From NCBI GenBank assembly GCA_947650365.1, contig CANTAL010000024.1, positions 1,240,001 through 1,304,000 of the forward strand: a stretch of DNA of 64,000 nt. The letters run 5' to 3'. Numbering within the stretch: the first letter of the stretch is position 1; each line of letters starts with the position of its first letter. Positions 9,991 to 41,473 of this stretch are shown here, piece after piece. The notes beneath the pieces were generated by a model that saw only the letters and a list, made by a program, of their open reading frames with translations, had not been told where the DNA came from and searched no databases. A program made the translations under genes and the position numbers. This stretch comes from Chamaelirium japonicum. Its lineage: Eukaryota; Streptophyta; Magnoliopsida; Liliales; Melanthiaceae.

Positions 9991-11670
9991 AACCTCCACT
10001 TCTTAATAGTATCATCTCAACGTTATTACGATTATCATAGTAAATTCCAAAACTCTCTTTATTTTAAACGATTAATTGAATTAAAAAAATTATAGTAATA
10101 TTACTATGATAATCATAATAACGTTGAGATGATACTGTTGAGAAGTAGAGTTTTGGAATTTAGATTCCTTCTTACTTCACAACTATACACATGGCGATAA
10201 TTAATTAAATATAGTTAAATATTTATATGGTAAGCTTAATTAGAGCCTAAGAAATCTATAGGAAACCCTAATCCGTAAGAGAGATCCGACGATGGACAGT
10301 CATCCGATCGAATGATCTTATATCAGTTGTAATGTTTTAGAATTAAATATTTAAATAATAACATTGAGATGATACTATTTAAATATTTAAAGAAATTATA
10401 TACTTTATAATATTTAAAGAAAAATTAATTGAAATAAATAAAAAAATAAACAATCTTCTATATCACAATACGTTATCAACACGAACATATCGAGCCCAAT
10501 CGACCAGTCATAAGAAAACTGAGAGAGAAACAAAGATAGAAAAAGAGAGAAGAAGAAAGAAGAGAATGGAGAGATAAACAAAGAGAGAAGAAGTTCTGCT
10601 CAGTCCATTGGCCATGGGTATAGGTGTGAAGTAAGAAGGAATCTAAATTCCAAAACTCCACAGAAGAAGAGAGAAGATAACGGAGAGATAAATAAACATA
10701 AAAGAGAGAAGAAGTCCTGCTCCAGTCCATTGGCCACGGGTATATATACAAAGTAAGAAGGAATCTAAATTCCAAAACTCTACTTCTCAATAATATAATT
10801 TAATCTATTCGTTGTCTTCTATCTCTGTTCACTTCTCTCTTCGCCCGTGGATTAGGGTTTTCCATAGATTGCTTAGGCCCTAAGTAAGTTTACCCTATAA
10901 ATAATAAACAACCCCTTTAGGGTGGGGAAAGTTTGACGACTCTTTTTTTCTCCTATCTCGTAATACGTTATCAGCACAAACATATCGAGCCCAGCCAACC
11001 AGTCATAAGAAAATGGAGAGAGAAACAAAGACAGAAGAGAGAGAAGAAGAGAGAAGAGAACAGGGACGTAAACGAAGAGAGAAGAGAGAAGAAGTCCTAC
11101 ACCAGTCCATTGGCCATGGGTATTGGTGTGAAGTAAGAAAGAATCTAAATTCCAAAACTCTACTTCTCAATAATATAATTAAATCTCTCCATTCTCTTCT
11201 CTCTTCTCTCATATATTAGGGTTTCCTATAGATTACTTAGGTCCTAAGTAAGCTTACCCTATAAATAATATACGACCCCTTTAGTTGGGGCATATTTTAC
11301 GGCTCTCTCTTTCTTCTATCTCACAACTTACCCTATAAATAATATATAACCCCTTTAGGGTGGGGCTCATTTGACAGCTCTCTCTTTCTTCCATTTCATA
11401 ACATGTTTCAGTACGAACATGTCAAGCCCAGCCGACCAGTCGTAAGAAAATAGAAAGAGAAACGAAAACAGAAGTGGAGTTTTGGAATTTAGATTCCGTC
11501 TTACTTCACACCTATACCCGTGGCCAATCGACTAGAGCATGACTTCTTCTCTCTTCTCTCTTTATTTATCTCTTCATTCTCTTCTCTCTTCTTCTCTCTT
11601 CTCTGTAGAGTTTTGGAATTGAGATTCTATCTTACTTCATACCTATACCCATGGCCAATGGACTAGAGTA
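9991..11670. repeat. TRIM-like LTR cluster (block 3)
   Basis: Primer sites begin at + 10471, 10966 and 11404. A fold-back around 10010-10140 holds the same AT-junction sequence (TATCATCTCAACGTTATTA) in both orientations. A minus-strand LTR body fragment lies at about 10215-10345, and two tandem LTR heads at 10560-10790. The LTR from 11098 to 11403 carries its promoter-to-end segment twice (11240-11330 and 11330-11403). No coding potential seen. Confidence 0.7.
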
Positions 11671-13130
11671 GGACTTCTTCTCTTATATCTCTTCATTTAT
11701 CTTTCCGTTCTCTTCTCTCTTCTTCTTTCTTATCTGTCTTCGTTTCTCTCTCTATTTTCTTGTGACTGATTGGCTAGGCTCGACATGTTCATGCTGATAA
11801 TGTATTGTAAGATAAGAGAAAGAGAGAGCCATCAAACATGCCCCGCCCTAAAGGGATCGTATAAATATTAAGCAGTGGAGTTTTGGAATTTAGATTCCTT
11901 CTTACTTCACACCTAAACCCGTCGCTAATGGACTGGAACAGGACTTCTTTCCTCTTCTCACTTTGTTTATCCTTCTGTTCTCTTTGCTCTTCTTATTTCT
12001 CTTTTGTCTTCGTTTCTCTCTCTGTTTTCTTGTGACTAATCGGCTGGGCTCGACATGTTCATGAAGATAACGTGTTGTGAGATGGGAGAAATAAAGAGCC
12101 ATCAAACGTACCCCACCCTAAACAGGTACTATTAATATTACGAAGTAGAGTTTTGGAATTTAGATTCCTTTTTACTTCACACCTATACCCATTGCCAATA
12201 GACTGGAGCTGGACTTCTCTCTTCGTTTATTTCTTCGGTCTTTTCTCTCTTCTTCTCTATTTTCTATCTTCGTTTCTCTCTCCGTTTTCTTGTGACTGGT
12301 CAGTTGGGCTCGACATGTTCGTGCTGATAACGTGTTGTGGGATGGGAGAAAGAGAGATCCATCAAGCGTACCCCAGACTGCCATCCGATCAAACGACTGG
12401 TCAGCCCTAATTAGTTATTAAATAATTAATTAGTTATTTTAATTCATACCTATACCCATAGGCAATGGACTAGAGCAGGACTTCTTCTCTCTTCTCTCTT
12501 CGTTTATCTCTCCGTTCTCTTCTCTCTTCTTCTCTCTCTTTTGCCTTCGTTTCTTTCTCCAAATTCTTACGACTGGTCGACTGGGCTCGATATATTTGTG
12601 CTGATAACGTGTTATGAAATAGAAGAAAAAGGGAGCCATCAAACGTGCCCAACCCTAAAGGAGTCGTATATTATTTATAGGGTAAGCTTACTTAGTGCCT
12701 AAGCAAACTAAGGGAAACACTAATCCATGGGAGAGATCCGATGGTGGACAGTTATCCGATCGAACGATCTTATAACAGTTGTAATGTTTTATACTTAAAT
12801 ATTTTTTAAATAATAATTAAATATTTTTTTAAATTATTTAAATAATTTAAATAATTATTTCTTTATTTAATAATTTAAATAATTAAATAGTTATCAAATT
12901 TAATTATTAAATATATTTATAATAATAAATAAATAAAATAATAAATTTATTTAAATAACTAGATAATTAAATAATTAAATAAATTAATTATTTTACTAAA
13001 AAATTTATTATTAAATTATTTAAATAATTTAATAATTAAACAAATAATTATTTTAATTAAAAAAATTATAGTAATATTACTTTGATAATCATAATAATAT
13101 TGAGATGATACTATTGAGAAGTGGAGTTTT
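11671..13130 (-). repeat. Head-to-tail TRIM array on the minus strand
   Basis: Read on the complement: internal 11671-11802 (132 bp), LTR 11803-11940 (138 bp), internal 11941-12072 (132 bp), LTR 12073-12210 (138 bp), internal 12211-12332 (122 bp), LTR 12333-12477 (145 bp, rearranged middle), internal 12478-12609 (132 bp), then a long-form LTR 12610-13130 with an AT-rich body at about 12780-13100. Primer sites are 11789-11802, 12059-12072, 12319-12332 and 12596-12609. Internal and LTR sizes match the plus-strand arrays, which supports the unit boundaries. Confidence 0.8.
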
Positions 13131-13966
13131 AAGGCATATTTGACGACTCTTTTTTTCTCCTATAACACAACACGTTATCAGCACGAACATATCGAGCCCA
13201 GCCGACCAGTCACAAGAAAATGGAGAAAGAAACAAAGACAGAAGAAAAAGAAGAAGAGAGAAGAGAATGGAGAGATAAATAAATAGAAAAGAGAGAAAAA
13301 TTTATGCTCCAGTCCATTAGCCACGGGTATTGCTGTGAAGTAAGAAGGACCCTAAATTTCAAACTCTACTTCTCAATAATACAATTAAATCTCTTCATTC
13401 TCTTATCTCTTCTTCCATTGATTAGGGTTTCCCATAGATGTCTTAGGCCCTAAGTAAGCTTACCCTATAAATAATATACGACCCCTTTAGGGTAGGGCAC
13501 GATTGATGGCTCTCCCTTTCTCCCATCTCACAACACGTTATCAGGACGAACATGTCGAGCCTAGCCGACTAGTCGTCAGAAAACTGAGAGAGAACAAAAG
13601 ACAGAAGAGTGGGAAGAGAACGAAGAGATAAACGAAGAAGAAGAAGCCCTGCTCAACTCCATTGACCATGGGTATAAGTATAAAGTAAGAATGAATTTAA
13701 ATTCTGAAACTCTACTTCTGTCTTTGTTTCTCTTTCTGTTTTCTTGCGACTGGTCGGCTGGGCTCGATATGTTTGTACTGATAATTTATTATAAGATAGG
13801 AGAAAGAGAGAGCCGTCAAATGTGCCCCTCCCTAAAAGAGTCATATATTATTTATAGGGTAAGCTTACTTAGAGCCTAAGCAATCTATGGGAAACCCTAA
13901 TCCATGGGAGAATAGGAAAGAGAATGGAGAGATTTAATTATATTATTGAGAAGTGAAGTAGAGCCG

Positions 13967-15026
13967 TCTAAGGTACCCCACCCCAAAGGGGTCGTATATT
14001 ATTTATCGGTTAACCTTACTTAGGGCCTAAGCAATCTATGGGAAACCCTAATCCATGGGAGAGATCCGACGATGGATAGCCATCTGATCGAACGATCTCA
14101 TAACAGTTGTACTATTTTAATTTTTTAAAGAAAAATATAAATTATTTCTAAAGCAAAAAATTCGAGTGTACCTTATCTTCCTTCTTTACTTCCTATTATT
14201 TAATTAATTTAATTAATTTAATAAATTAAATAATTAAATAATTAAATAATTAAATAAATATTTAATTATCTATAAAATTAAATAATTAAATTAATTAAAT
14301 AATTTATTTATTATTTAAATATTAAAATAAATAAATATTTATTTAATTATTAAAAAAAATTAAGTTATTTAAAAAAATATTTTATTATTTATATATTCAT
14401 ATAATTAACTAATTATTTAAATAATAAGATAATAGTTATTAAATTATTTATTTTATTTTATTACTTAATTAAATAATTAATTATTTTTATTTTATTTAAT
14501 ATTTTATAATTTAATAAAATAATTTTTTAAATATTTAATTAAATAAAAAATAATTGAAAATATTATTTATTTAACTATAAAATATTTTAATAATTAAATT
14601 ATTTATTCCTTTAAGTAAATTATCATTTTAATATATTTCTTAACTAAAAAAGTTTTAAATATTTAAATTATTGACTAATAATTTAATTATTTAAAAATAA
14701 AATAATAATTATTAAAATAACTAATAAAATAAATAAAAAATTAATTATGTAATTAAATCATTATTTAATAATATAAAATAATAAATTTAATTAAATAACT
14801 AGATAATTAAATAATTAAATAAATTAATTATTTTACCAAAAACTTAATTATAAAATTATTTAAATTATTTAATAAGTTAATAAATAATTAATTTATTTAA
14901 AAAAATTATAGTAACATTACTATGACATTTATAATAACTTTGGAATTATACTATTGAGAAGTAGAGTTTTGGAATTTAGATTCCTTCTTACTTCACACCT
15001 ATACCCGTGGCGAATGGACTAGAGCA
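13967..15026 (-). repeat. Long-form TRIM-family LTR, AT-rich body
   Basis: Minus-strand LTR whose tail (near the GAGCCGTC motif at 13969) is not next to a primer site. It has the GATCCGACGATGG motif near 14062, then about 750 bp of almost pure A/T. It ends in the usual ATTACTATGA junction and LTR head at 15026. A decayed fossil; only one LTR is present. Confidence 0.65.
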
Positions 15027-16901
15027 GGACTTCTTCTTTCTTCTCTCTTCGTTTATCTCACCGTTCTGTTCTCTCTTCTTCTCTCAATAGATTGCCAATG
15101 AAGTTTTTGTAATAAAAATAATTTATATTTTTCTTTAAAAAAGTTTAAAACAATATAACTGTTATGAGATCGTTCGATTGGATGGTAATGGACTAGAGCA
15201 GAACTTCTTCTCTCTTTTTCTTTGTTTATATCTCTTTTCTCTTCTTTCTTCTTCTCTCTCTTATGTCTTTGTTTCTCTCTTCATTTTCTTATGATTGGTC
15301 AGCTGGGCTAGATATATTCATGCTGATAATGTGTTGTAAGATGGGAGAAAAAAAGAGTCGTCAAACGTGCCATATCTAAAGGGGTCGTATATTATTTATA
15401 GGGAAGCTTACTTAGGGCGTAAGCAATCTATGGAAAACCCTAATCCATGGGAGAAGAAAGATGAGAATAAAGAGATTTAATTATCTTATTGAAAAGTAGA
15501 GTTTTGGAATTTAGATTCCTTCTTACTTTACACCTATACCCGTGGCCAATAGACTGGAACAGGACTTTTTCTCTCTTCTCTCATTATTTATCTCTCTGTT
15601 CTCTTATCTCTTTTTAATCTTCATTTCTCTCTCCGTTTTTTTATAACTGGTCAGCTGGGCTCGACATGTTCGTACTGATAAAGTATTGTGAGATGGGAAA
15701 ATAAGAGAGTCGTCAAACATGCCCCACCCTAAAGGGGTCATATAAATATTGAAAAGTGGAGTTTTGGAATTTAGATTATTTCTTACATCATACCTATACC
15801 CGTATCCAATGGACTGGAGCAGGACTTTTCCTCTCTTCTTTCTTCATTTATCTCTTCGTTCTTTTCTCTTTTCTTCTCTCTTTTTTGTGGAGTTTTGGAA
15901 TTTAGATTCCTTCTTAGTACATACCTATACCCGTGTGAGAAGAGACTATTTAAATAATTAATTCTCAGTTCTGTTCTTTCTTTTCTATATTCGTTTCTAT
16001 CTCTATTTTCTTATGACTGGTTGGCTGGGATAGATATATTTGTGCTGATAACGTTTTATGAGATGGGAGAAAGAAAGAGCTATCAAACGTGTCCTACCCT
16101 AATGGGGTCGTATTTTATTTATAGGGTAAGCTTACTTAGGGCCTAAGCAATCTATGGTAAACCTTAATCCATTGGAGAAGAGAGAAGAAAACAGAGAGAT
16201 TTAATTATATTATTGAGAAGTGGAGTTTTAGAATTTAGATTCTTTCTTACTACACACCTATACCTATGATGAATAGACTAGAGCAGGACTTCTTCTCTCT
16301 TCCCTATTCGTTTATCTCTCTGTTTTCTTCTCTCTTCTTCTTTCTCTTCTGTCTTCGTTTCTCTCTCTATTTTCTTATGACTGGTCAGTTGGGCTCGACA
16401 TATTCGTGCTGATAACGTGTTGTGGGATGGGAGAAAGAGAGAGCCATCAAATATGCCCCACCCTAATTAGATTTCTTCTTACTTCACACCTATACCCGTG
16501 GCCTATAGGTTAGAGCATGACTTCTATCTTCTCTCTTCATTTATCTCTGCATTTTCTTCTCTCTTCTGTCTTTCTTTCTCTCTCTATTTTCTTATAACTG
16601 GTCGGCTTGGCTCGACATGTTCATACTGATAACGTATTGTGTGATGGAGAAAAAGAGAGCCGTTAAACATGCCCCACCCTAAAGGGGTCATATAAATATT
16701 AAGAAGTTGAGTTTTGGAATTTAGATTCTTTCTTACTTTATACTTATACCAATTGTAAATGGAATAGAGTATGACTTCTTCTCTCTTCTCTCTTCATTTA
16801 TCTCTTCGTTCTCTTCTTTCATCTACTCTCTTCTGTCTTCGTTTCTCTCTCCGTTTTCTTATGACCGGTCAGCTGGGCTCGACATGTTTATGCTGATAAC
16901 G

Positions 16902-17345
16902 TGTTATGATATGGGAGAAAGAAATAGCCATCAAACACGCTCCACCCTAAAGGGGTCATATATTATTTATAGGGTAAGCTTACATAGGGCCTAAGCAATC
17001 AATAGGAAACCCTAATCCAAGGGAGAGATCCGACGGTGGATAGCCATCTGATCGAATGATCTCATAACAGTTGTAATATTTTAATTTTTTTAAAGAAAAA
17101 TATAAATTATTTTTAAAACAAAAATTTGGGTGTGCCTTATCTTCCTTCTTTACTTCCTATTATTTAATTAATTTATTATTTATATAATAAGTAAATAGTT
17201 ATTAAATTATTATTTTATTTTATTACTTAATTAAATAATAATTTTTTTTATTTATTTCAATTAATATTTAATATTTTAATAAAAAAAAGTTTATTTAATT
17301 AATTACATAATAAATTTATTAAAATGATTAATTTTTTAACTATAT
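16902..17345 (-). repeat. Truncated long-form TRIM-family LTR
   Basis: Starts directly after the primer site at 16888-16901 and carries promoter region, GATCCGACGGTGGATAGCC motif and the beginning of an AT-rich body. It then passes abruptly into a new internal region at about 17345. Confidence 0.6.
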
Positions 17346-17640
17346 CTTCTTCTCTCTCTTCTGTCTTCGTTTCTCTCTCCGTTTTCTTATTACTGGTCGG
17401 TTGGGCTCGACATGTTTGTGCTGATAATGCGTTGTAAGATGAAAGAAAGAGAGATCTGTCAAATATGCCCCACCCAAAAGGAGTCATATATTATTTATAA
17501 GGTAAGCGTACTTAGGGCCTAAGAAATATATAGGAAACCCTAATCTAGAGATACGACGGTGGACAACTATCCGATCGAACGTGTCCCACCCTAAAGGGTC
17601 GTATTAATTATTTATTTAAATAATTATTAAATCAATTCTC

Positions 17641-20600
17641 TTAACTAGTAAGCTTACTTTATAAATATTTAATTATATATAATTGATTTTTGCCATAGTT
17701 ATAGGTGTGAAGTAAGAAGGAATCTAAATTAAAAAACATCACTTCTCAATAGTATCATCTCAACGTTATTATGATTATCATAGTAATGTTACTATAATTG
17801 TTTTAATTAAATTAAATATTTATTTAATTATTAGATAATTTAAATAATTTCATAATTTAATAAATTAATAATTAAATTTACTAATTAACGTGTTGTGAGA
17901 TGGAAGAAAGAGAGAGTCGTCAAATTTGCTCCACCCTAAAGGGGTCGTATAATATAATTAAATTTCTCCATTTTCTTCTCTTTTCTCTTATGGATTAGGG
18001 TTTTTCATAGATTGCTTAGGCCATAAGTAAGCTTACCCTATAAATAATGTACGACCCCTTTAGGGTGGGGCACGTTTACAGCTCTCTATTTCTCCCATCT
18101 CACAACACAATATCAGCACGAACATATCGAGCCCAGCCGACCAGTCGCAAGAAAACAGAGTGACAAACGAAGACACAAGAGGAGTTTTGGAATTTAGATT
18201 CCTTCTTACTTCACATCTATACCCAGGGTCAATGGACTTGAGCAAGACTTCTTATTTCTTCTCTCTTCATTTATCTCTCTGTTTTTTTTTTCTTCTTCTC
18301 TCTCATCTCTCCGAAGAGAGAAGAGAAAAGACAGAAGAGAGAGAAGAAGAGAAAAGAAGAGAGAAGACAATGAAGAGATAAACAAAGACAGAAGAAAGAG
18401 ATACGACTGGTCAGTTGGGCTTGATATTAAGAAGTGGCACACTCGAATGCTTAGGCCCTAAGTTCAATTATTAAGAGATACATCATCGGATCTCTCCTAT
18501 AGATTAGGGTTTTTTATCGATTACTTAGGCCCTAAGTAAGCTTACCCTATAAATAATATATAACCCCTTTAGGGTGGGGCATGTTTAACGGCTCTCTTTT
18601 TCTCCTATCTCATAACACGTTATCAGTACGAACATGTCGAGCCCAGCAACCAATCGCAAGAAAACGGAGAGAGAAACAAAGGCATAAGAGAGTTAAGAAG
18701 AGAGAAGAGAATAGAGAGATAAACGAAGAAAGAAGAGAGAAGAAGTCCGGTTCTAGTCCATTGGCCCCGGGTATATGTGTGAAGTAAGAAGGAATCTAAA
18801 TTCCAAAACTCCACTTCTCAATAATATAATTAAATCTCTCTGTTCTCTTCTATCTTCTCCCATAGATTAGGGTTTACCATTGATTGCTTAGGCACTAAGT
18901 AAGCTTACCCTATAAATAATATACGACCCCTTTAGAGTAGGGCATTTTTGATGGCTCTAACTTTCTTCCATCTCACAATATGTTATCAGCATGAATATGT
19001 CTAGCCCAACCGACCAGTCATAAGAAAACGGAGAGAGAAACAAAAATAGAAGATGAGAGAAGAGAACGGAGAGATAAACGAAAAGAGAAGAGAGAATAAG
19101 TCATGCTCCAGTCCATTCGCCATGGGTATAGGTATGAAGTAAGAAGGAATCTAAATTTCAAAACTCCACTTGTCAATAGTATCTTCTCAAAGGTAATATG
19201 ATTATCATAGTACTATTACTATAATTTTTTTATTTAAATTAATTATTTGATTAAAACAAAGAGAGAAGAGAATTTACTATGATAATCGTAATAACGTTAA
19301 GATAATACTATTGAGAAAACTCAACTTCTCAATAATATAATTAAATCTCTCCGTTCTTTTCTATCTTGTCCTATGGATTAGGTTTTCCCATGGATTACTT
19401 AGGCTTTAAGTAAGATTACCTTATAAATAATATACGACCCCTTTAGGGTAGGGCACATTTGACGGCTCTCTCTCTTTCACTCATCTCACAATATATTTTT
19501 AGCATGAATATGTCGAGCCCAGCTGACCCATCACAAGAAAATAGATATAAAAACGAAGACAGAAATGGAGTTTTGGAATTTAGATTCCTTCTTACTTCAC
19601 ACCTATACCCATGTCCAATTGGCTAGAGTAGGACTTCTTCTCTCTTCTTTCTTCATTGATTTCTCCATTCTCTTCTTCTTTCTCTTCTGTCTTCGTTAAA
19701 CTCTACTTCTTTTCTTAGTAAACGGAGAGAGAAATGAAGACAGAAGAGAGAAGAGAACAGAGAGATAAACGAAGAGAGAAGAGAGAAGAAGTCCTACTCC
19801 AGTCCATTGGCCATGGGTATAGGTGTGAAGTTCCCTCTTCTATCTTTGTTTACCTCTCCATTCTCTTCTCTCTTCTTTTGTCTTTATTTTTCTCTCTATT
19901 TTTCTTACGACTGGTCGACTGGGCTCGATATGTTCGTGCTGATAACATATTATAAGATGGAAGAAAGAAAGAGCCGTCAAATGAGAAACCCAACTCCATG
20001 GGAGAAGAGAGAAGAGAACGGAGAGATTTAACTATATTATTGAGAAGTGGAGTTTTGGAATTTAGATTCCTTCTTACTTAACACCTATACCCATGGATAA
20101 TAGACTGGAGCAGGACTTCTTCTCTCTTCTTTCTTCGTTTATCTCTCCATTCTCTTCTATCTTCTTCTCCTTACTCATAACAGTTATCAGCATGAACATA
20201 TCGAGCCCAACCGACCACTATTTAGAATTTAACTAAATTATTTAAATATATTATTTAAATTATTTATCTCTCTATTCTCTTCACTCTTCTTCTCTCTCTT
20301 CTGTCTTTGTTTCTCACTCCGGTTTCTTGTGACTGATCGGCTGGGCTCAATATATTCATGCTGATAATGAGTTGTGAGAAAAAAAAAAGAAGAGAAAATA
20401 GTAGAAAGAGATAAACGAAAAAAGAAGAGAGAAAAAAGTACTACTCAAGTCCATTCGCCACGGGTATTAGTGTGAAGTAAGGAGGAATCTAAATTCCAAA
20501 ACACCACTTCTAAATAATATAATTAAATCTCTCCATTCTCTTCTCTCTTCTCCCATGTATTAGAGTTTCCCATAGATTGCTTAGGACCTAAGTATGCTTA

Positions 20601-20720
20601 CCCTATAAATAATATACGACCCCTTTAGGGTGGGGCACGTTTGACGACTCTTCCTTTCTCCCATCTCATAACACTTTATCAGCACGAACATGTTGAGCCC
20701 AGCTGACCAGTCGTAAGAAA
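17641..20720. repeat. TRIM-like LTR cluster, mostly + (block 5)
   Basis: Primer sites begin at + 18108, 18618, 18981, 19494, 20183, 20674 and at - 19934, 20356. The part 18500-19190 is a direct run of two medium-length LTR units. At 17750-17890 there is an AT-rich LTR-body fragment and at 17886-17955 an isolated minus-strand LTR tail. No coding sequence seen. Confidence 0.7.
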
Positions 20721-20739
20721 ACAGAAAGAGAAACGAAGA

Positions 20740-21220
20740 CAGAAGTGGAGTTTTGGAATTTAAATTCCTTCTTACTTCACACCTATACCCGTGGCCAATA
20801 GACTAGAGCAGGACTTCTTCACTCTTCTCTCTTTGTTAATCTCTTATTTCTCTTTTCTCTTCTTCTCTCACTTCTGTCTATATTTCTCTATTCATTTATT
20901 GAGAGAAGAAGAGGAGTTTAACAAAGACAGAAGAGAGATAAGAAGCAAGAACAGAACGAAGAGATAAATAAAGAGAAAAGAGAGAACTACACACCTATAC
21001 CCATGACCAATGGACTGGAGTAGGACTTCTTCTCTCTTCTCTCTTCATTTATCTCTCCATTTTCTTCTCTCTTTTTCTTTCTCTTCTGTCTTCATTTCTC
21101 TATCCGTTTATATAGAGAAGAAGTGAAGTTTAACGAAGACAAAAGAGAGATAAGAAGCGAGAAGAGAACAGAGAGATAAATAAAGAAAGAAGAAAGAAGA
21201 TGTCCTGCTCTAGTGCTTTG
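20740..21220 (+). repeat. Local tandem duplication of a fold-back segment
   Basis: Two adjacent copies (about 20740-20985 and 20990-21220) share the same odd order: LTR head reversed, internal region reversed, then an abrupt turn at GAGAAGAAG(A/T)G(G/A)AGTTTAAC and a forward purine tract. Sharing the same unusual joint shows one rearranged piece was copied, not two independent events. Confidence 0.6.
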
Positions 21221-23002
21221 GTTATAGGTATAAGTGTGAAGTAAGAAGGAATCTAAATACCAAAACTCTACTCGGTCTTCGTTTCTCTAACTGTTTTCTT
21301 TCGACTGGTCGGCTGGGCTCGACATATTCGTTCTAACAATATGTTGTGAGATGAGAGAAAGGGAGAGCCATCAAACAGGCCCTACCCTAAAGGGGTCGTA
21401 TATTATTTATAGGGAAAGCTTACTTAGGGCCTAAGCAATATATGGGAAACCGTAATCCATAGACGAAGAGAAAAGAAAACGGGGAGATTTAATTATATTA
21501 TTACGAAATAGAGTTTTTAAATTTAGATTCCTTCTTACTGTACACCTATACCCGTGGCGAATGGACTGGAACAGGAATTCTTTTCTCTTCTCTCTTCGTT
21601 TGTCTCTCTGTTCTCTTCTCTCTTCTCATAACACGTTATCAATATGAACATGTCGAGCCCAACCAACTAGTCATAAGAAAACGGAGAGAGAAATAATGAT
21701 AGAAGAGAGAGAAAATAACGGAGAGATAAATAAAGAGGAAAGATAGAAGAACTCCTGCTCTAGTCCATTGGCCACACGTATAGTTGTAAAGTAAGAAGGA
21801 ATCTAAATTCCAAAACTCCACATAAGAAAGATAAGAAGAGAGAAGAGAAAGAAGAGATAAATAAAGAGAGAAGAGAGAAGAAGTCCTACTCCAGTCCATT
21901 GGCCACGGGTATAGATGTGACGTAAGAAGGAATCTAAATTCCTAAACTCCCCTTCTGTCTTCGTTTCTCTCTCCGTTTTCTTGTGACTGGTTAGCTGGGC
22001 TCTATATGTTCGTACTGATAACGTGTTATGAGATGGGAGAAAGAGAGAGCCGTCAAACGTGCCCCACCATAAAAGGGTCGTATATTATTTATAGGGTAAG
22101 CTTCCTTAGGGCCTAAGCAATCTATAGGAAATCCTTATCCATAGGAGATATCCGACGGTGAATAGTCATCCTTTATACTTCACACCTATACCCATGGCCA
22201 ATAGAATGGAGCAAGACTTCTTTTCTCTTCTCTTTTTGTTTATCTCTCCGTTCTCTTCTCTCTTTTTCTCTCATCTCACCACACGTTATCAGTACGAACA
22301 TGTCGTGCCCAGCCGTCTAGTCACAAAAAAACAGAGAGAGAAATAAAGACAACAGAGAGAGAAGAAGAGAGAAGAGAACGAAGAGATAAATTAAGAAAAA
22401 AAAGAAGGATGACTATCCTTCATTGAATCCTAAGGATTTGGATTTCCTATAGATTTCTTTGGCCCTAATTAATCTTACCCTATAAATAATATCTGACCCC
22501 TTTAGGGAGGGGCACGTTTGATGGCTCTCTCTTTCTCCCATCTCATAACACATTATCAGCACGAAAATATCGAGCCCAACTGACTAATCAGAAGAAAAGA
22601 GAGAGAGAAACAAAGATAGAAATAGAGCTTTGGAATTTAGATTCCTTCTTACTTCACACCTATACCCGTGGCCAATGGACTGGAGTAGGGCTTCTCTTTT
22701 TACTTTATTTATCTCTCCGTTCTCTTCTCTCTTCTTCTCTCTCTTGTATGGATTTTCGAAATTTAGATTCATTCTTACTTCACACCTATACCCATGGCCA
22801 ATGGACTGGAGCATGACTTCTCTCTTCTCTCTTTATTTATCTCTCCATTCTCTTCTCTCTTCTTCTCTCACTTCTGTCTTTGTTTCTCTCTCCGTTTTCT
22901 TATGACTCGTCGGCTGGGCTCGACATGTTCGTGCTGATAATATGTTATGACAAGTGAGAAGAGAACGAAAAGATAAATGAAGAGAGAAGAGAGAAGAAGT
23001 CC
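21221..23002. repeat. TRIM-like LTR cluster (block 6)
   Basis: Primer sites begin at + 21634, 22284, 22551 and at - 21328, 22010, 22929. Two LTR heads in tandem lie at 21700-21900 and again, reversed, at 22620-22830. No host gene recognised. Confidence 0.7.
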
Positions 23003-23234
23003 TACTTCAGTCCATTCACCATAGGTATAGGTGTGAAGTAAGAAGAAATCTAAATTCCAAAACTCCACTTCTCAATAATATAATTAAATCTCTCATTTGT
23101 CTTCTCTCTTCTCCCATTGATTAGGGTTTCCTATAGATTGGTTAGGCCCTAAGTAAGCTTACCCTATAAATAATATACGATCCCTTTAGGGTGGGGCACA
23201 TTTGACGACTCTCCCTTTATCCCATCTCATAATA
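23003..23234 (+). repeat. TRIM LTR, medium class (232 bp)
   Basis: Opens TACTTCAGTCC (consensus TGCTCCAGTCC). It then carries the conserved small hairpin with arms GGAAT/ATTCC, a TTAGGGTTT telo-box (complement) at 23121-23129, the palindrome GTAAGCTTAC, TATAAATA at 23165-23172, and an end near ATAATA just before the primer site. Confidence 0.75.
23121..23172 (+). promoter_or_regulatory. LTR promoter: telo-box plus TATA box
   Basis: TTAGGGTTT at 23121-23129 is the complement of the plant telo-box AAACCCTAA. TATAAATA at 23165-23172 lies 35 bases further on. This pair recurs with the same spacing in most medium and long LTRs of the window. Transcription would begin near 23200, leaving a very short R-U5 before the LTR end at 23234. 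Activity is inferred from motifs only. Confidence 0.6.
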
Positions 23235-23366
23235 CATTATCAGCACAAACATGTCAAGCCAAGCTGACCAGTCGTAAGAAAACGGAGAGAGAAACGAAGC
23301 CATAAGAGAGAGAAGAAGAAAGAATAGAACGGAGAGATAAACGAAGATAGAAGAGAGAAGAAGTCC
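23235..23366 (+). repeat. TRIM internal region (132 bp) with primer site
   Basis: Begins with the primer site (23235-23248). Continues with the conserved leader ATGTCAAGCC-type sequence and a purine-rich tract rich in GAGAGAA and GAAGAGAGAAG that acts as the likely polypurine tract, and ends AAGTCC before the next LTR. Far too short to encode gag or pol. Confidence 0.75.
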
Positions 23367-23503
23367 TGCACCAGTCCATTGGCCACGGGTATAGATTTGA
23401 AGTAAGAAGGAATCAAAACTCCAAAACTCTACTTCTTAATTTTTATATGACCCCTGATGATAAGGCATGTTTGACGGATCTCTCTTTCTCCGATCACACA
23501 ACA
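23367..23503 (+). repeat. TRIM LTR, short class (137 bp)
   Basis: Opens TGCACCAGTCCATTGGCC and ends CACAACA. Compared with the medium class it lacks the telo-box/TATA segment, so the conserved hairpin region runs almost directly into the GACCCC segment. About half of the LTRs in the window are of this class. Confidence 0.75.
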
Positions 23504-23628
23504 CGTTATCTACACGAACATGTCGAGCCCAACCGACCAGTCACAAGAAAACGGAGAGAGAAACAAAGACAGAAGGGAGAGAAGACAAGAAAAAAGAACA
23601 GAGAGATAAACGAAGAGAGAAGAAGTCC
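23504..23628 (+). repeat. TRIM internal region (125 bp)
   Basis: Primer site variant CGTTATCTACACGA at 23504-23517, then leader and purine tract ending AAGTCC before the TGCTCC of the next LTR. Confidence 0.75.
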
Positions 23629-23862
23629 TGCTCCAGTACATTGGCCATGGGTATAGGAATGAAGTAAGAAGGAATCTGAATTCAAAAACTCCACTTCTCA
23701 ATAATATAATTAAATATCTCTGTTCTCTTCTCTTTGCTCCTATGGATTAGGATTTCCTATAGATTGCTTAAGCCCTAAGTAAGTATACCCTATAAATAAT
23801 ACATGACCCCTTTAAGGTAGGGCATATTTAACGCCTCTATCTCTTTCTCCAAAATCACAACA
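23629..23862 (+). repeat. TRIM LTR, medium class (234 bp)
   Basis: Opens TGCTCCAGTACATTGGCC, has TATAAATA at 23791-23798 and ends CACAACA at 23862, giving TG...CA termini. This is the best preserved medium LTR on the plus strand. Confidence 0.8.
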
Positions 23863-23987
23863 CGTTATCAGTACGAACATGTCGAGCCCAATCGACCAGT
23901 CGCAAGAAAATGGAGAGAGAAACGGAGACGGAAGAGAGAAAAGAAGAGAGAAGAGAACGGAGAGATAAAAGAAGAGAGAAGAAGTCA
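23863..23987 (+). repeat. TRIM internal region (125 bp)
   Basis: Primer site CGTTATCAGTACGA at 23863-23876, one base from consensus. The AG-rich tract follows and ends just before TGCTCCAGTCC at 23988. Confidence 0.75.
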
Positions 23988-24050
23988 TGCTCCAGTCCAT
24001 TGGCCATGGGTATAGGTGTAAAGTAAGATGGAATCTAAATTCCAAAACTC

Positions 24051-26984
24051 CACTTCTGTCTTCGTTTTTCTCTTTGTTTTCATGTGACTGGTCGGGTGGG
24101 CTCAATACGTTCGTGCTGATAGCATATCTAGTTTAATTAAGAAGGAATCTAAATTCCAAAACTTCACTTCTTAATAATATAATTAAATTTCTTTGTTCTC
24201 TTCTCTCTTCTTCTATAGCTTAGGGTTTCTCATAGATTGCTTAGGCCCTAAGTAAGCTTACCCTATAAATAATATTCAACCCCTTTAGGGTAGGGCACGT
24301 TTAATGACTCTCTCTTTCTCCTATCTCATAAGACTTACCTTATAAATAATATACGACCCCTTTATGGTAGGGCACATTTGATGGCTTTCTCTTTCTCCCA
24401 TCTTATAACACGTTATCTTTTGTTTCTCTCCCCGTTTTCTTTGTTTCTCTATCTTTCTCTTATAGTATAAAATAAAATAAATAATTATTAATAGAAAAGA
24501 GATAGAAAATTATTTTAAACTAGAGAGAGCAGGACTTCTTTTCTCTCCTCTCTTCGTTTATCTTTGCATTCTTTTTTTTTTCTCCCATCTCATAACATAT
24601 TATCAGCACGAATATATCGAGCCTAGCCGACCAGTCGTAAGAAAACAGAGAGAAAAACGAAAACAGAAGTAGAGTTTTTGAATTTAGATTTCTTTTTACT
24701 TCATACTCATACCCATGGCTAATGGACTGGAGCGGGACTTCTTCTCTCTTCTATCTTCGTTTATCTCTCCATTTTCTTCTCTCTTCTTCTCTCTCTTCTG
24801 TCTTTGTTTCTCTCTCTATTTTTTTTATGACTGGTCGGTTGGGCTCGATATGTTCGTGCTGATAACGTGTTGTAAGATGGAAGAAAAAGAGGACCGTCAA
24901 GCGTGCCCCACCCTAAAGGTATCGTATATTATTTATAGGGTCAGTTTACTTAGGGCCTAAGCAATCTATGAGAAACCCTAATCCATAGGAGTGGTCCGAC
25001 GGTGGATAGCAATCTGATCGAACGATCTCTCAACAGTTGTAATGTTTTTTATTTTTTTGAAGAAAAATGTAAAATATTTTTAAAGCAAACAAATTGAGTG
25101 TGCCTCATCCTTTCTTTACTTCCTATTATTTAATTAATTTAATTATTTAATAAATTAAATAGTTAAATAATTAAATAACCAAATAAATATTTAATTATCT
25201 TCTCTCTTCTTATTTTATTTTATTACAATAATAATTAAATGGAGTATTGTTACTATTAATAGTTTAATTAAAACGAAGAGAGAAGAGAATTTACTATAAT
25301 AATCTTAGTAACGTTGAGATGATACTATTGAGAAGTGGAGTTTTAGAATTTAGATTTCTTTTTACTTCACACCTATACCCGTGGGAATAGACTTGAGTAG
25401 GACTTCTTCTCTCTTCTCTCTTATTTATCATCGTTTAAATTATTAAATAATTTAAAAAATTTATAAATTAAGTTTTTAGTAAAATAATTAATTTAAAAAA
25501 ACAAATTTTTTGCTTTAAAAATAACTAATATTTAAAAAAAAAAAATTAAAACATTACAACTGTTATAAGATAGTTCAATCGGATGGCTGCCCACCATCGG
25601 ATCTCTCTAATGGATTAGGGTTTCCCATAGATTGCTTAGGCCCTAAGTAAGATAACCCTATAAATAAAATACGATCCTTTTAGGGTTGAGTACGTTTGAC
25701 GGCTCTCTTTTTCTCACATCTCACAATACATTATCAGCACGAACATGTCAAGCCCTATGGAATCTAATTAAATAAATATTTAATTAATTACAGAACTTCT
25801 TCTCTCTTCTCTCTTCGATATGTTCGTACTGATAATGTGTTTTGAGATGGAAGAAAGAGAAAGCTATCAAACATGCCCCACCCTAAAGGGGTCATATAAT
25901 CTTTAAAGAAGAGAAAAGAGAACGGAGAGATAAACAAAGAGAGAAGAGAGAAGAACTCCTACTCTAGTCTATTGGCCACGGGTATAGTTATGAAGTAAGA
26001 AGGAAGCTAAATTCCAAAACTCCACTTCTCAATATTTATACGACCCATCAGATCTCGACCAACTCTTTATTTATTATACTTATTTAATCTCACAACACGT
26101 TATCAGCACGAACATATCGAGTCTAGCCGACCAGTCATAAGAAAACGGAGAAAGAAACAAAGATAGAAGAAAGAGAAAAAGAGAACGGAGAGATAAACAA
26201 AGAGAAAAGAGAGAAATAGTCCTACTTTGGTCCATTGGCCAGGGTATAGGTGTAAAGAAAGAAAGAATATAAATTCCAAAACTCCACTTCTGTCTTCGTT
26301 TCTCTCTCTGTTTTCTTATGACTGCTCGGCTCGACTCGACATGTTCGTATTTATAACGTGTTATAAGATGGGAGAAAGAGAGAGCTATCAAATATGCCCT
26401 ATCCTAAAGGGGTCGTATAAATATTAAAAAGTAGAGTTTTAGAATTTATATTCCTTCTTACTTCACACCTATACCCATGGCCAATAGACTGGAGAGACTA
26501 TAGGTATATTATTTATTAGGTAAGATTACTTTGGGCCTAAGAAATCCCTGGGAGATTACTTAGGGCATAAGCAGGACTTCTTTTCGTTTGTCTCCTTGTT
26601 TATCTCTCTGTTCTTTTCTTTCTTTCTCCCACCTCATAACACGTTATCTGTACTAACATATCCAGCCCAGCTGACCAGTCGCAAGAAAACAAAGAGAGAA
26701 GAGACGACAAAAGAGAGAGAAGAAGAGAGAAAAGAACGGAAAGATTTAATTATATTATTGAGAAATAGAGTTTTGGAATTTAGATTCCTTCTTAATTCCC
26801 ACCTATACCCGTGGCGAATGGATTGGAGTAGACCTTCTTCTCTATTTTCTCTTCGTTTGTCTCTCTGTTCTCTTCTTTCTTTTCTGTCTTCGTTTCTCTC
26901 TCTGTTTTCTTTGTGACGGTCTGCTGGGCTTGACATATTCGTGCTGAATGGGAGATATTATTTAACTAATATTATTTTTAGTCC
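24051..26984. repeat. TRIM-like LTR cluster (block 7)
   Basis: Primer sites begin at + 24411, 24598, 25729, 26098, 26642 and at - 24111, 24854, 25824, 26345. Two LTR tails stand in tandem at 24210-24418. Long-form LTRs of opposite orientation face each other at 24868-25399 (-) and about 25430-25728 (+), giving an AT-rich stretch at 25110-25560. No host gene. Confidence 0.7.
24868..25399 (-). repeat. Long-form TRIM-family LTR (532 bp)
   Basis: Abuts the primer site at 24854-24867. Carries TATA region, the GTCCGACGGTGGATAGC motif near 24994 and a reduced AT-rich body, and ends at the LTR head ACTTGAGTA at 25399. Confidence 0.65.
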
Positions 26985-29270
26985 TGCTCTATGTTTAATC
27001 TCTTTTTAGTCATGCCAATAAACTAGAATAGGACTTTTTTTCTCTTCCCTTTTTATCTATCTCTCCATTCTCTTCTCTCTTCTTCTCTCCCTCTTCTTCT
27101 TTCCCTCTTTTGTCTTTGTTTCACTCTCTATTTTCATGTGACTGGTCGGCTGGGCTCGATATGTTCATGCTGATAATGTGTTGTAAGATGAGAGAAAGAA
27201 AGAGCCATCAAACGTGCTCCACCCTAAAGGGATAATATATTATTTTTAGGGTAAACTTACTTAGGACCTAAGCAATCTATAGGAAACCCTAATCTATGGG
27301 AGAGATCTGACGGTGGACAACTATCCTTCTTACTTCACACCTATACCCGTGGTGAATGGACTGGAGCTGGACTTCTTTTCTCTTCTTCTCTATCTAATTA
27401 TCGGATAGTTGTCCACTATCGGATCTCTCCCATAGATTAGGGTTTCGCATAGATTACATAAGCCCTAAGTAAGAAGAAGTTCTGCTCTAGTCCATTGGCC
27501 ACAGGTATAGGTCTGAAGTAAGAAGAAATCTAAATTCAAAAACTCCACTTCTCAATAGTATCATCTCAACGTTATTATAATTATCATATTAATGTTACTA
27601 TAATTTTTTAAATTAAATTTAAATTTTATTTAATTATTAAATAATTAAATAATTTAGTTTTTAGTAAAATAATTAATTTATTTAATAATTTAAATATCTA
27701 ATTATTTAATTAAATTTCTTATTTAATTTATTTATTATTATTTAATTATTAAATAATTAAATTAGGTAACTATTTAATTATTTAATTATTTAAATTATTT
27801 AATAAATAAATAATAATTTAATTATATAATTAATTTATTAATTTATTTTATTAGTTATTTCTTTAATTATTATTTTATTTTTAAAAAATTAAATAATTAG
27901 TTATTTATTTAAACGGAGTGAGAGAACGTAGAGATAAATAATAGTGCCCCACCCTAAAGAAAATTTATAATAACATTGATTATTTTAGGTTCATGCTTAG
28001 AAAAGAGAGAGCCGTCAAATATGCCCCACCCTAAAGGGGTCCTATATTATTTATTGAGAAGTTGAGTTTTGGAATTTAGATTCCTTCTTACTTCACACTA
28101 CTTCATACTACTTCACACCTATACCCGTGGCTAATGGACTAGAGTAGGGCTTCTTCTCTCTTCTCTTTTTGTTTCTCTCTCTGTTTTCTTGTGACTGGTT
28201 AGCTGGGCTCGATATGTTTGTACTGATAACATACAGTGAGATGGGAGAAAGAGAGATCCGTCAAACATGCCCAACCCTAATTCGATTTCTTCTTACTTCA
28301 TACCTATATCTGTGACCAATGGACTGGAGTAGGACTTCTTCTATTTCCTCTCTTCATTTATCTCTCTGTTCTCTTCTCTCTCTTCTGAGGAGTTTTGGAA
28401 TTTAGATTCTTTCTTACTTCACACCTATACCCGTGGCTAATGAACTGGAGCAGGACTTCTTCTCTCTTCTCTCTTCATTTATGTCTCAGTTCTCTTATCT
28501 CTTCTTTTCGCTCTTTTGTCTTCATTTCTCTCTTCATTTTCTTGTGACTGGTCGGCTGGGCTCGACATGCTGATGCTGATAACATGTTATGATGTGGGAG
28601 AAAGAGAGAGTCATCAAACATGCCCCACTCTAAAACGATAATATATTATTTATAGGGTAAGCTTACTTAGGACCTAAACAATCTATGGGAAACCCTAATC
28701 CATGGGAGAGATCCGACGGTGGACAGTCATCCTTCTTACTTCACACCTATACCCATGGTGAATGGACTGGAGCAGGACGTCTTCTCTCTTCTCTCTTCTT
28801 CTCTCTTTAATTATCGGATCACTATCCACCGTCGGATCTTTCCCATTGATTAGGGTTTCCTATAGATTGCTTAGGCCCTAAGTAAGATTACTTTATAAAT
28901 AATTAGGACTGACCAGTCATATCTACATTATTATGATTATCATAGTAATGCTACTATAATTTTTTTAATTAAATTAATCATTTATTTAATTATTAAATAT
29001 TTAAACTAATTTAATAATTTAAATAAATAAGTTTTTAGTAAAATAATTAATTTACTCAATTATTGAATTATCTAGTTATTTAATTAAATTTATTATTTTA
29101 TTTTATTTATTATTATTATATTATTAAATAATTCAATTAAGCAACTATTTAATTATTTAAATTATTAAATAAAGAAATAATTATTTAATTATATAATTAA
29201 TTTATTAATTTATTTTATTAATTATTTCTTTAATTATTATTTATCTTTATTTAAAATATTATTTAGTGAA
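26985..29270. repeat. Direct duplication, two copies of about 0.9 kb
   Basis: About 26985-27910 and 28390-29270 share the same order. First comes a minus-strand internal region (primer sites at - 27165 and - 28571), then an LTR with the rare variants GATAATATATTATTT and GGACCTAA. Next is a fold-back where the GACGGTGGACA motif reappears inverted about 100 bp on, and then a plus-strand AT-rich LTR body. The offset is about 1.4 kb. Another minus primer site begins at 28218 between the copies. Confidence 0.65.
27560..27930. repeat. AT-rich LTR body
   Basis: Nearly pure A/T, with TTATTTAATTATTAAATAAT runs. It sits between the ATTATCATATTAATG junction and a purine tract, as in other long-form LTRs. 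Nothing else is seen in it. Confidence 0.6.
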
Positions 29271-29640
29271 GAAATATATTAAATAGATTATTTAATTAAA
29301 CAAATAAATATTTTTATTAAAAAAAATATTTTTTTATAATCATAATAATGCTGAGATGATTTAAATAACTAATTAAAGAAATAATGATTATTATAGTAAT
29401 ATTACTATAATTTAAAAAAATTAAACTATGATAATTTAATAAATAGGGTTTCTATAATATTTCTTCGTATATTAGTTAAATTAATCATCTATTCAATATT
29501 AAATAAATTATTTATTTTACTAAATACTTAACATTTAAATTATTTAAATTATTAAATTATTTAAAAAATAAATAATTTAATTAAAAAAATTATAGTAACA
29601 TTACTATGATAATCTTAATAACGTTGAGGTTATTCTTTTT
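28930..29640. repeat. AT-rich LTR bodies, facing
   Basis: About 700 bp of A/T sequence with the family's junction motifs at both ends and again near 29330-29400 in inverted order, so at least two LTR bodies abut. No gene or other feature seen. Confidence 0.6.
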
Positions 29641-32600
29641 TAATTAAATTATAAATAAAGAGAAAAGAGAAGAAAAGTCCTGCTCTAGTCTATAAATAAA
29701 ATAAATAAGCAATCTTCTATCTCACAATGTGTTTCAGCACGAACATATCGAGCCCAGCCGACCAGTCATAAGAAAACGAAGAGAGAAACGAAGACAGAAG
29801 AGAGAGAAGAATAGAGAAGAGAACGGAGAGATAAACGAAGAGAGAAGAAGTCTTACTCCAGTCCATTGGCCATGGGTATAGGTGGGAAGTAAGAAGGAAT
29901 CTAAATTCCAAAACTCCACTTCTCAATAGTATCGTTTCAACGTTATTATGATTATCATATTAAATTATCTTCTCTCTTTGTTTTAATTTAATGATTAACT
30001 TAATTAAAAAAATTATTGTAGCATTATTATGATATATGATTATTTAACTAATTATAACGTTGAGGTGAATGAAGAGAAGTAGAAGAAAAAAGACCTATAT
30101 TTCATTGATTGTAGGTAGAAGAGATATAAATATTGATTAGGTATGAATATTATTTATAAGAGATATTTAAATTCTGATTAATAAATTGCAGGACTTCTTC
30201 TCTCTTCCCTATTCTCTCTTCTCTCTTCTTTCTTCAATATGTTCATATTGATGACGTGTTGTAAGATAATTTAATATTTAATAATTCTCTTTGTGTTTAT
30301 CTCTCTATTCTCTTCTCGCTTTCTCCCACCTCACAACACGTTATTAGCACGAACATATCGAGCCCAACCGACCAGTCATAAGAAAACAAAGAGAGAAACA
30401 AAGACAGAAGAGAGAGAAGAAGAGAGAAGAGAACGGAGAGATAAACGAAGATAGAAAAGAGAGAAGAAAACATAAGAGAACGGAGAGATAAACAAAGATA
30501 GAAGAGAGAAGAAGTCCTGCTCCAGTCCATTCGCCATGGGTATAAGTGTGAAGTAAGAAGGATAGCTGTCCACCGTCGGATCTCTCTCATGGATTAGGGT
30601 TTCCCATAGATTGCTTAGGCCTATCCTATAAATAATATATGACCCCTGTAGAGTGGGGCATATTTGACGGCTCTCTCTTTCTCCCATCTCACAATACGTT
30701 ATCAGCACGAACATGTTGAGCCGAGTCGACCAATCAAAAGAAAACGGGAAGAGAAACAAAGACAGAAGTAGAATTTTAGAATTTATATTCATTTTTACTT
30801 CATACCTAAATCCGTGGTGAATGGACTCGAACAAAACTTCTTCTCTCTTCTATCTTTGTTTATCTCTCTGTTCTCTTCTCTCTTGTTCTCTCTCTTCTAT
30901 CTTTATTTCTCTTTCTATTTTCTTGTGACTGGTTGGCTGGGCTCAACATGTTCATGCTGATAATGTATTCTGAGATGAGAGAAGAAAAGCAAAGAAAGAA
31001 GTAAGAAGGAATCTAAATTCCAAAACTCCACTTCTTAGTATTTATATGACCTTTTTATGGTAGCACACGTTTGACGACTCTCTCTTTCTTACATCTCACA
31101 ACACGTTATCAGCACGAACAAATCGAGCCCAACCGATTAGTCATAAGAAAACAGAGAAAGAAATGAAGATAGAAGTAGAGTTTTAGAATTTAGATTCCTT
31201 TTTACTTTACACCTATACTTCACACGGATATAGGTATGAATTAAGAAGGAATCTAAATTCCAAAACTCCATAGAAGAGAGAGAAGAAGAAAAAAGAGAGA
31301 AGGAAGAGAGAAACGAAGACAGAAAAGAGAGAATAAAAAAGAAAAGAACGAAGAGATAAACAAAGATAGAAGAGAGAAGAACACCTATTCTATTCCATTG
31401 ACCACGGGTATAGGTGTGAAGTAAGAAGGAATCTAAATTTCAAAAGTTCACTTCTGTCTTCGTTTCTCTCTCCGTTTTCTTACGACTGGTCAGCTGGGCT
31501 CGACATGTTTATGCTGATAACGTATTGTGAGATGGAAGAAAGAAAGAAGAGAACGGAGACATAAATGTGATAAGCTTAAATTAAATGAAATTTATTAAAC
31601 ATATTATTAATAATTTAATTTAATAAATAACATAAGAGATATTTAAATAATTTAAATTTATTTAAAAATTTAATTAACTAGTTATTTATTTATATTTTTA
31701 GTATTAATAATATAAAATAAACTAATTAAATAAATATTAAGAGAGAAGAGAAACAAAGTCCTGCTCCAGTCCATTCGCCATGGGTATAGGTGTGAAGTAA
31801 GATGGAATCTAAATTGCAAAATTCCACAGAAGAGAGAGAAGAAAAGAGAAAAGAACGGAGAGATAAATAAAGAGAGAAGAAGTCCTACTCCAGTCAATTA
31901 GCCACGGGTATAGGTAAGATATAGGAAGGAATCTAAATTCTAAAACTCCACAAAAGAGAGAGAAGAAGAGAAAAAAAAAACAGAGATAAAAACAAAAACA
32001 GAAGAGAGAGAAGAAGAGAGAAGAGAACATAAAGATAAATAAAGAAAGAAGAGAGAAGAAGTCCTGCTCCAGTCCATTAGCCACGGGTATAGGTGTGAAG
32101 TAAGAAAGAATCTAAATTCCAAAACTCCACTTCGCAATAGTATCATCTCGATGTTATTATGATTATCATAGTAATGTTATAATAATTTTTTTAATAAATT
32201 AACCATTTATTTATTTATTAAATATTTTAAATAATTTAATAATTAAGTTTTTAGTAAAATAATTAATTAAATATAATTATTATAGTATAAATAGTTTTTT
32301 AATTATCTAAATAAAATAATTATTGCAAATTAGAGTTTTTGAAATTTAGATTCCTTCTTACTTCACACCTATACCCTTGGCCAATGGACTGGAGCATGAC
32401 TTTTTCTTTCTTTATTTATCTCTTTGTTCTCTTTTCTCTTCTTTTCTCTTTTCTTTAGAGTTTTGAAATTTAGATTCCTACTTACTTCATACCTATACCC
32501 GTGGTGAATGGACTAGGCAGAATTTCATATCTCTTCTCTCTTAATATTTATTTAATTAGTTTACTTTATATTGTTAATATTAAAAAAATAATTAAATAAC

Positions 32601-33959
32601 TAGATAATTAAATAATTAAATTAATTAATTATTTTACTAAAAACTTAATTATTAAATTATCTAATTATTAAATTATTTAATAATTAAATAAATTATTATA
32701 GTAATAGTACTATGATAATCATAATAATGTTGAGATGATACTATTGAGAAGTGGAGTTTTGGAATTTAGATTTTTTCTTACTTCACACCTATATCCATGA
32801 TGAATGGAGTAAAGAAAGACTTCTTCTCTCTTCTCTCTTCGTTTATTTCTTCGTTCTCTTTTCTCTTCTTCTCTCTCTTATATCTTCGTTTCTCTCTACA
32901 TTTTCTTCTCTCTTCTGTCTTTGTTTCTTTTTCTCATAGATTGTTTAGGCCCTAAGTTAGCTTACCCTATAAATAATATACGACCCCTTTAGGGTGGGGT
33001 ATGTTTGATGGCTCTCTCGTTCTCCTATCTCAAAACACATTATCAGCATAAACATATCGAGCCCAACCGACCAGTCACAAGAAAACGGAGAGAGAAACGA
33101 AGATAAAAGAGAGAAAAGAAGAGAGAAGAGAACGGAGAGATAAACAAAGAGAAGACAGAAGAAGATAGAAGAGAACAGAGAGATAAACGAAGAGAGAAGA
33201 GAGAAGAAGTCCCACTCAAGTCCATTGACCATGGGTATAGGTGTGAAGTATGAAGGAATCCAAATTCCAAAACTCTACTTGTTAATATTTATATGACCCC
33301 TTTATAGTGGGGCTTGTTTGACGGCTCTCTCTTTCTCCCATCGCATAACACGTTATCAGTATGAACCTATTGAGCCCAGCCGACCAATCGCAAGAAAACA
33401 AAAAAAGAAATGAAGACAGAAGTGGAGTTTTGGAATTTAAATTCCTTCTTACTTCACACCTATACCCGTGGTTAATGGACTGGAGTAGGACTTCATCTCT
33501 CTTCTCTCTTTGTTTATCTCTTTATTCTCTTATCTCTCTTTCGTCTTTATTTATCTCTCCGTTTCTTATGACTGGTCGGTTGGGCTCGATATATTCCTGC
33601 TAATAACATGTTATGAGATGGGAGAAAGAAAGAGCCGTCTAACGTGCCCCACCCTAAAGGGGTCATATATTATTTATATGGTAAGTGTTGTGAGATGGGA
33701 GAATAGGAGAGCCATCAAACATGCCCCACCCTAAACAGGTCGTATAAATATTGAGAAGTAGAGATTTAGAATATAGATTCCTTCTTACTTTACACCTATA
33801 CCCGTAGCCAATGGATTAGAGCAGGACTTCTTCTCTCTTCGTTTATCTCTCCGTTCTATTCTCTCGTCTTCTCTCTCTTCTGTCTTTGTTTTTTTCTCTG
33901 TTTTTTTTATAATCATATATTAGTTAAATAACATAGAGCTGGACTTCTTCTCTCTTCTC
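29641..33959. repeat. TRIM-like LTR cluster (block 8)
   Basis: Primer sites begin at + 29730, 30339, 30697, 31104, 33038, 33351 and at - 30952, 31509, 33595. AT-rich pieces lie at 31565-31740, 32150-32330 and 32560-32720. A minus-strand LTR tail without a primer site lies at 33688-33750. No host gene recognised. Confidence 0.7.
31740..32140 (+). repeat. Tandem LTR heads joined to purine tracts
   Basis: Three successive copies of a 130-150 bp sub-unit: purine tract, AAGTCCTGCTCC-type LTR head, hairpin segment GGAATCTAAATTC, and then CCACA joined straight back into the next purine tract. Each copy lacks the LTR tail and primer site. The same sub-unit repeats at 10560-10790, 35540-35770, 46720-47330 and 54400-55190. 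Confidence 0.65.
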
Positions 33960-39287: not shown

Positions 39288-39314
39288 TCTATATAACATG
39301 GCATGGCGGTCTGC

Positions 39315-39393
39315 ATGCTGACTAGACAAAATGGTACCAAATGCTGACTAGACAAAAAAACGCTGACTAGATAATGCTGACAAGACAAAAAAA
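39315..39393 (+). repeat. Subterminal repeat of Helitron copy 1
   Basis: Four close copies of TGCTGACTAGACAAAA (starting near 39316, 39342, 39362 and 39375) just inside the 5' end. The mirror copy is at 62728-62803. Confidence 0.75.
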
Positions 39394-39469
39394 TTAGAAA
39401 GAGAGAGTCTAGCTTATTTTTTTAAATAGAATTTTATTGCTCCTAAATAATAAAAAAGAAAACCCAATA

Positions 39470-41415: not shown

Positions 41416-41473
41416 TTTATACTTTTTTCTATGAAACCATGTTGATTTGGTCGATGACAAATTAAAAAAAATG

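Follow-up and report, generated by a model that had tools for sequence, protein, structure and literature searches.

Drosophila copia primes its reverse transcription with the initiator tRNA-Met, which carries no inosine. The elements studied here resemble Drosophila copia and yeast Ty5 in that their primer would be an internally cut tRNA lacking its native 3' end, but differ from Ty5 whose primer, in the part of the source drawn on here, is the initiator tRNA-Met without inosine (PMC5371799). In the fungal copia element FunCo1 the primer-binding site (PBS) is likewise complementary to the interior of a tRNA, which, according to the excerpt of its description used here, is tRNA-Lys (PMC5445492). 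Closest to our case is the plant Ty1/copia lineage Bianca, whose PBS is complementary to a half tRNA-Ile with the first anticodon base edited from A to I (Neumann et al. 2019, PMC6317226). In the consulted sections of that survey half tRNA-Ile sites are attributed to Bianca only among the plant elements covered, and a 5-bp target duplication is reported for 93.4% of these elements.

The elements of Chamaelirium japonicum share with Bianca, as far as described in those sections, the half tRNA-Ile PBS directly following the 5' LTR with a C facing the presumably edited base, as well as a copia-type reverse transcriptase (RVT_2 in L088). The target duplication of 5 bp (AGAAT, read in one element) agrees with most of the plant elements in the surveyed portion. 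Judged from the type of PBS, the lineage is most likely Bianca. The tRNA-Ile/inosine primer site as such is already published for Bianca, on the evidence of the same sections, and is here seen in thousands of copies. What is new is a 14-nt boundary opposite G26 and a small family, named after its member L081, whose complement reaches about position 11; neither is mentioned for Bianca in that part of PMC6317226. The 14-mer or its core, searched for as letters, was not found in the literature covered.

The 14-nt site and the adjoining LTR end

The window, i.e. the whole stretch of 64 kb analysed, belongs to contig C36 of the 1.52-Gb genome. Its features that matter here are the following.

1630..63866, no strand assigned: fragments of LTR end, site and leader arrayed in either orientation, holding 123 sites with up to 3 mismatches
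9271..9284, + strand: exact copy of the 14-nt site (exact-match search)
23161..23234, + strand: 3' part of an LTR, TATA-like CCTATAAATAATATA followed by a tract ending CTCATAATA (read directly; 3' boundary at 23234 set by analogy with the dispersed element L001/L088)
23235..23248, + strand: copy of the putative primer-binding site, CATTATCAGCACAA, with 2 changes from CGTTATCAGCACGA (mismatch search and direct reading)
23249..23380, + strand: short GA-rich leader, ACATGTCAAGCC and then GAGAGA tracts (extent approximate)
24854..24867, − strand: exact copy of the 14-nt site (exact-match search)
63277..63290, − strand: exact copy of the 14-nt site (exact-match search)

On both strands of the window CGTTATCAGCACGA is present in 21 exact copies, in 60 copies if up to one mismatch is allowed, in 97 with up to two, in 123 with up to three and in 137 with up to four. 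The mean chance expectation amounts to 0.06 for up to two mismatches (100 shuffles), and to 1.25 and 20.25 for exactly three and exactly four mismatches, respectively (four first-order Markov sequences). The recurrence of the motif, far above chance, is thereby confirmed, and the figure of about 132 copies given in a first-pass annotation, which lies between 123 and 137, holds as an approximation. The copy singled out there, at 23235-23248, does exist, although it deviates from the consensus at two positions and is hence not exact. The four bases preceding the 123 sites read A (116), A (118), C or T (118) and A (117) and thus resemble the 3' end of an LTR, while the leader following nearly all of these sites starts with ACATRTCGAGCCC.

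Outside the arrays we analysed the first 48 of 75 exact sites with C facing the wobble base on contig C1 before 116.28 Mb. Since these sites were picked by exact match, conservation of the 14-mer itself is a matter of selection and only the flanks and the boundary constitute free tests. All 48 are preceded by A-A-C/T-A. Single linkage at 0.75 sorts them into 8 LTR-end groups and 26 leader groups, average linkage at a distance of 0.25 into 12 and 27; across methods and cut-offs the numbers range from 8 to 12 and from 24 to 29, respectively. The 14-mer and the preceding AACA are accordingly common to sites whose LTR ends and leaders differ widely. As a side observation, one and the same leader type is found joined to different LTR-end types (L001-L008, L048-L087). 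Of the 9 leader groups with several members, 7 are combined with at least two LTR groups, or 6 under a looser cut-off, these groups resting on about 45 bases per side. Such combinations give the impression that parts are exchanged between elements at the primer site, for which strand transfer may be responsible.

In the element L001/L088 both LTRs could be delimited. They comprise 162 bp, are 88.9% identical and are flanked by the AGAAT duplication, which, in this one element, is present before the 5' LTR and after the 3' LTR. The 3' LTR ends with the same AACA that precedes the site, so the LTR terminates exactly where the site starts; a polypurine-tract-like sequence reads GAAGGGGGAG. The 3' LTR of a second family (L108) ends at the same point. 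Since in L001/L088 the LTR abuts the site without any spacer, the primer should end at G40, which agrees with the earlier suggestion of a 5' tRNA half ending near base 40. Within the dispersed element, L088:3289-3507 matches RVT_2 (PF07727, E=3.5e-14) in one open piece. Two of eight scanned L088 pieces yielded a family above the cut-off (RVT_2 and Pol_BBD) and six did not; none of the eight matched an integrase family. One piece of L001, which we take to be gag, has no Pfam match, and its relatives occur in L092, L106 and L107 but not in L105 or L108.

Priming from a tRNA 3' end is marked by TGG, the complement of CCA, after the LTR. This triplet is missing within 20 nt after the LTR at all 48 dispersed sites and from −5 to +20 at all 123 window sites, so that no tRNA 3' end offers a better fit than the anticodon arm. 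We consider it highly probable, on the strength of complementarity and position, that the 14-mer represents the minus-strand PBS of Ty1/copia-type LTR retrotransposons whose primer is the 5' half of cytosolic tRNA-Ile(IAU). That it might instead be a tRNA-derived or tRNA-mimicking functional motif, such as a promoter or structural element, with no role as primer site would accord with its location in a decayed array where transposition is not needed. Yet in L001/L088, a copia-type element flanked by a target duplication, the site directly adjoins the LTR 3' end, the standard place of a PBS, and its flanks vary widely among elements, which renders such a motif very improbable.

tRNA-Ile genes and the base facing position 34

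A genome-wide search with the plant-type arm pattern TCGTGCTRATAACGCGAAGG, allowing A or G at position 34, retrieved nine genes, every one of which has A34 and is assigned to tRNA-Ile(AAT) by ARAGORN. Relaxing the pattern brought in two more sequences of this kind, L103, which ARAGORN accepted as tRNA-Ile(AAT), and L102, which it rejected. In standard numbering, assigned by hand, the 14-mer complements tRNA-Ile from position 40 down to 27, save for the C facing A34. This C is to be expected if A34 is converted to inosine, and we infer such editing in C. japonicum, together with the use of the tRNA-Ile 5' half as primer, from the sequences of genes and elements. The modelled site/tRNA duplex reaches −22.4 kcal/mol with G and −16.0 kcal/mol with A at position 34, where inosine was treated as G, which probably overstates its pairing strength. 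The match to the tRNA-Ile anticodon arm with C at the inosine position, as proposed in the first-pass annotation, is thus reproduced with the tRNA genes of the source genome itself, all nine pattern-found genes containing the matching arm.

A primer with gene-encoded G34 would pair with this C unedited, and an organellar tRNA-Ile(GAU) exists. Among genes with the plant-type arm context, however, G34 occurs in none of nine, and a pattern combining G34 with the 5' tRNA context hits four places, each with an LTR-like end before the site; ARAGORN recognises a tRNA neither in the three short stretches nor in L092, the fourth. Judged from the genes with that arm context, we hold another, inosine-free tRNA to be a most unlikely primer.

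With tRNA-Ile(IAU) as primer, the tRNA would be cut after G40, and the 3'-terminal 14 nucleotides of the resulting half (27-40) would anneal directly beside the LTR with I34 pairing to C. Plus-strand DNA synthesis copying the primer would then read inosine as G, by which the C would be rewritten in each round. This scheme draws on the sequences themselves: site and tRNA are complementary, the genes carry A34 and the elements C, the site abuts the LTR end, and the match stops at 14 nt. Genes and elements of one genome, placed side by side, support the notion that an RNA edit in a host tRNA can become fossilised in the sequence of an element.

Genome-wide, the exact 14-mer with C at the wobble-facing base occurs 14,508 times, and the pattern read backwards does not occur at all. 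The same site with T is present 1,345 times (11 of these places being tRNA-like sequences), with A 197 times and with G 19 times. As control transitions, C to T at site position 10 is found in 4,689 and G to A at position 9 in 1,923 copies, so T at the wobble-facing base is rarer than both, most genome-wide copies being array duplicates and hence not independent counts. In the window the wobble C-to-T change (5 of 123) is likewise rarer than transitions at other C's and G's (11 to 36 of 123), again among array duplicates which are not independent. On C1 before 116.28 Mb and outside the arrays, the matches listed comprise 75 sites with C, 4 with T and none with A or G, one further T place having been excluded as a tRNA gene; the control transitions number 0 (position 10) and 1 (position 9) among the matches listed. 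All four T sites (L009, L010, L012, L013) are also preceded by AACA. The order C > T > A/G on C1 outside the arrays would be expected from inosine pairing, and T appears somewhat favoured there over both control changes, albeit in small numbers. The T sites may stem from occasional copying of unedited tRNA or from T being tolerated by inosine.

The 14-nt boundary opposite G26

A tRNA complement longer than the 14-mer would continue with CGCTCTAACC. Among the 48 dispersed sites 40 show no further in-register match, six show one and two show two, which is about random; L081 scores 0 in this run count as its base opposite G26 differs. In 47 of the 48 the match thus stops at 14 nt (0 to 2 extra bases, chance level), opposite G26. 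In the window 121 sites have no further match and two have one. A local-alignment test for an echo of the tRNA D arm gave p≤0.05 for 6 of 48 leaders (2.4 expected), L081 being the strongest, which amounts to a slight excess. The GCTC of L089-L091 was discounted as evidence since the pattern used to fetch these sequences required it.

L081 departs conspicuously from the other sites. Of its 16 bases from +15 to +30, 14 match the tRNA complement, the next best of the 48 attaining 8 of 16. It deviates at +15, the position opposite G26, where A replaces C, and at +23. Searched genome-wide with up to three mismatches, this pattern occurs at 12 places, namely L081 and 11 tRNA-like sequences. L105 and L106, which were found by similarity to L081, keep the complement to position 11 but lack one base at the junction; elsewhere in the kept complement one change is present in L105 and two in L106, and 15 of the 16 bases following the site in L105 match (counted by eye). 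L107 continues with A and GCTCT before it departs from the tRNA complement. Opposite G26, L081 and L107 hence carry A instead of C, and one base is missing in L105 and L106. The small copia family formed by L081/L092, L105, L106 and, in part, L107 has LTRs of about 280 bp. In this family tRNA copying seems, on at least one occasion, to have gone further than position 26, with an irregularity right there. Such copying through G26 would account for the complement of positions 25 to about 11 behind the site; as it amounts to one ancestral event, the pattern is no more than suggestive.

In HIV-1, the length of the PBS is determined by the modified base m1A58, at which plus-strand strong-stop synthesis halts, as stated in the consulted part of a review (PMC13191261). 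A modified G26 could analogously be responsible for the length of 14 nt here, the proposed stop lying in a 5' tRNA half as opposed to the 3' tRNA end with m1A58 used by HIV-1. The coincidence of boundary and irregularity suggests, short of proof, that a modified G26 sets the site length. In Arabidopsis reads, according to the sections of PMC2674459 drawn on here, m22G is read mainly as U, which would imply the insertion of A, the base present opposite G26 in L081 and L107. It would follow that the primer site records two modifications of tRNA-Ile, I34 as C and a blocking G26 (m22G expected) as the 14-nt limit, a reading which we put forward tentatively and consider rather doubtful as a whole. 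About an even chance is given to the alternative that only the anticodon hairpin (27-43) opens for annealing, without any stop of copying at a modified G26. Besides facing G26, the boundary also falls at the foot of the anticodon stem, and in those sections of the Arabidopsis small-RNA study m22G-type misreading is listed for the tRNAs of Asn, Met and Tyr but not of Ile (PMC2674459). Against hairpin opening as the sole determinant, the L081 family demonstrates that complement beyond 26 is possible, with an irregularity at 26. A limited literature search, which is no proof of absence, recognised no work linking half-tRNA site length to G26. A boundary set by G26 would provide a testable rule for the length of half-tRNA sites, parallel to the retroviral m1A58 rule.

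Array structure in the window and beyond

A TRIM, a short non-autonomous LTR element, would have two LTRs enclosing a short internal part, together with a target duplication; of such parts, the window shows repeated LTR ends and sites along with short leaders. Matches of one real repeat unit cover 67% of the window; the 125 matches longer than 150 bp have a median identity of 81% and lie in both orientations, and many of the 69 same-strand site spacings amount to 253-277 or 346-371. Overall, the window consists of decayed LTR/leader fragments from one family, arrayed in a partly palindromic fashion, and contains no live elements. A complete dispersed copy of this family was not identified among the 48 sampled dispersed sites, viewed mostly as 144-base stretches. 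A Pfam scan of eight open frames, six from the window and two from the leader side (L005, L006), gave no match.

A 26-mer of the window family, comprising site and leader, has 2,631 exact copies in the genome, of which the 100 places listed all fall within C1:116.40-118.05 Mb. Among the matches listed, the site and its variants are densely clustered at C1:116.28-118.27 Mb and near the starts of C2-C7, with recurring spacings and both orientations. These clusters possibly constitute a megabase-scale satellite built from LTR ends; we recognised no matching precedent for such arrays or satellites in the literature.

A large inverted duplication (38117-49008 and 52758-64000) reaches the window end, its arms of about 11 kb consisting of pieces 96.5-96.6% identical around a 3.7-kb centre. 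Both arms contain a block free of the repeat unit (39289-43647 and 58436-62828) with open frames, five of which gave no match in a Pfam scan. An Rfam match to mir-16 at 40714-40805 on the − strand (39.1 bits versus a gathering score of 36.5) is probably due to chance in this context. Furthermore, five AT-rich blocks with a GC content of 8-12% are present (581-1298, 14062-14943, 28904-29737, 47865-48785 and 52982-53910). The LTR-start-like TGTTATGAGATC is found at 629, 14105, 15160 and 17069; two of these four places lie inside the first two AT-rich blocks and one 0.2 kb beyond the second.
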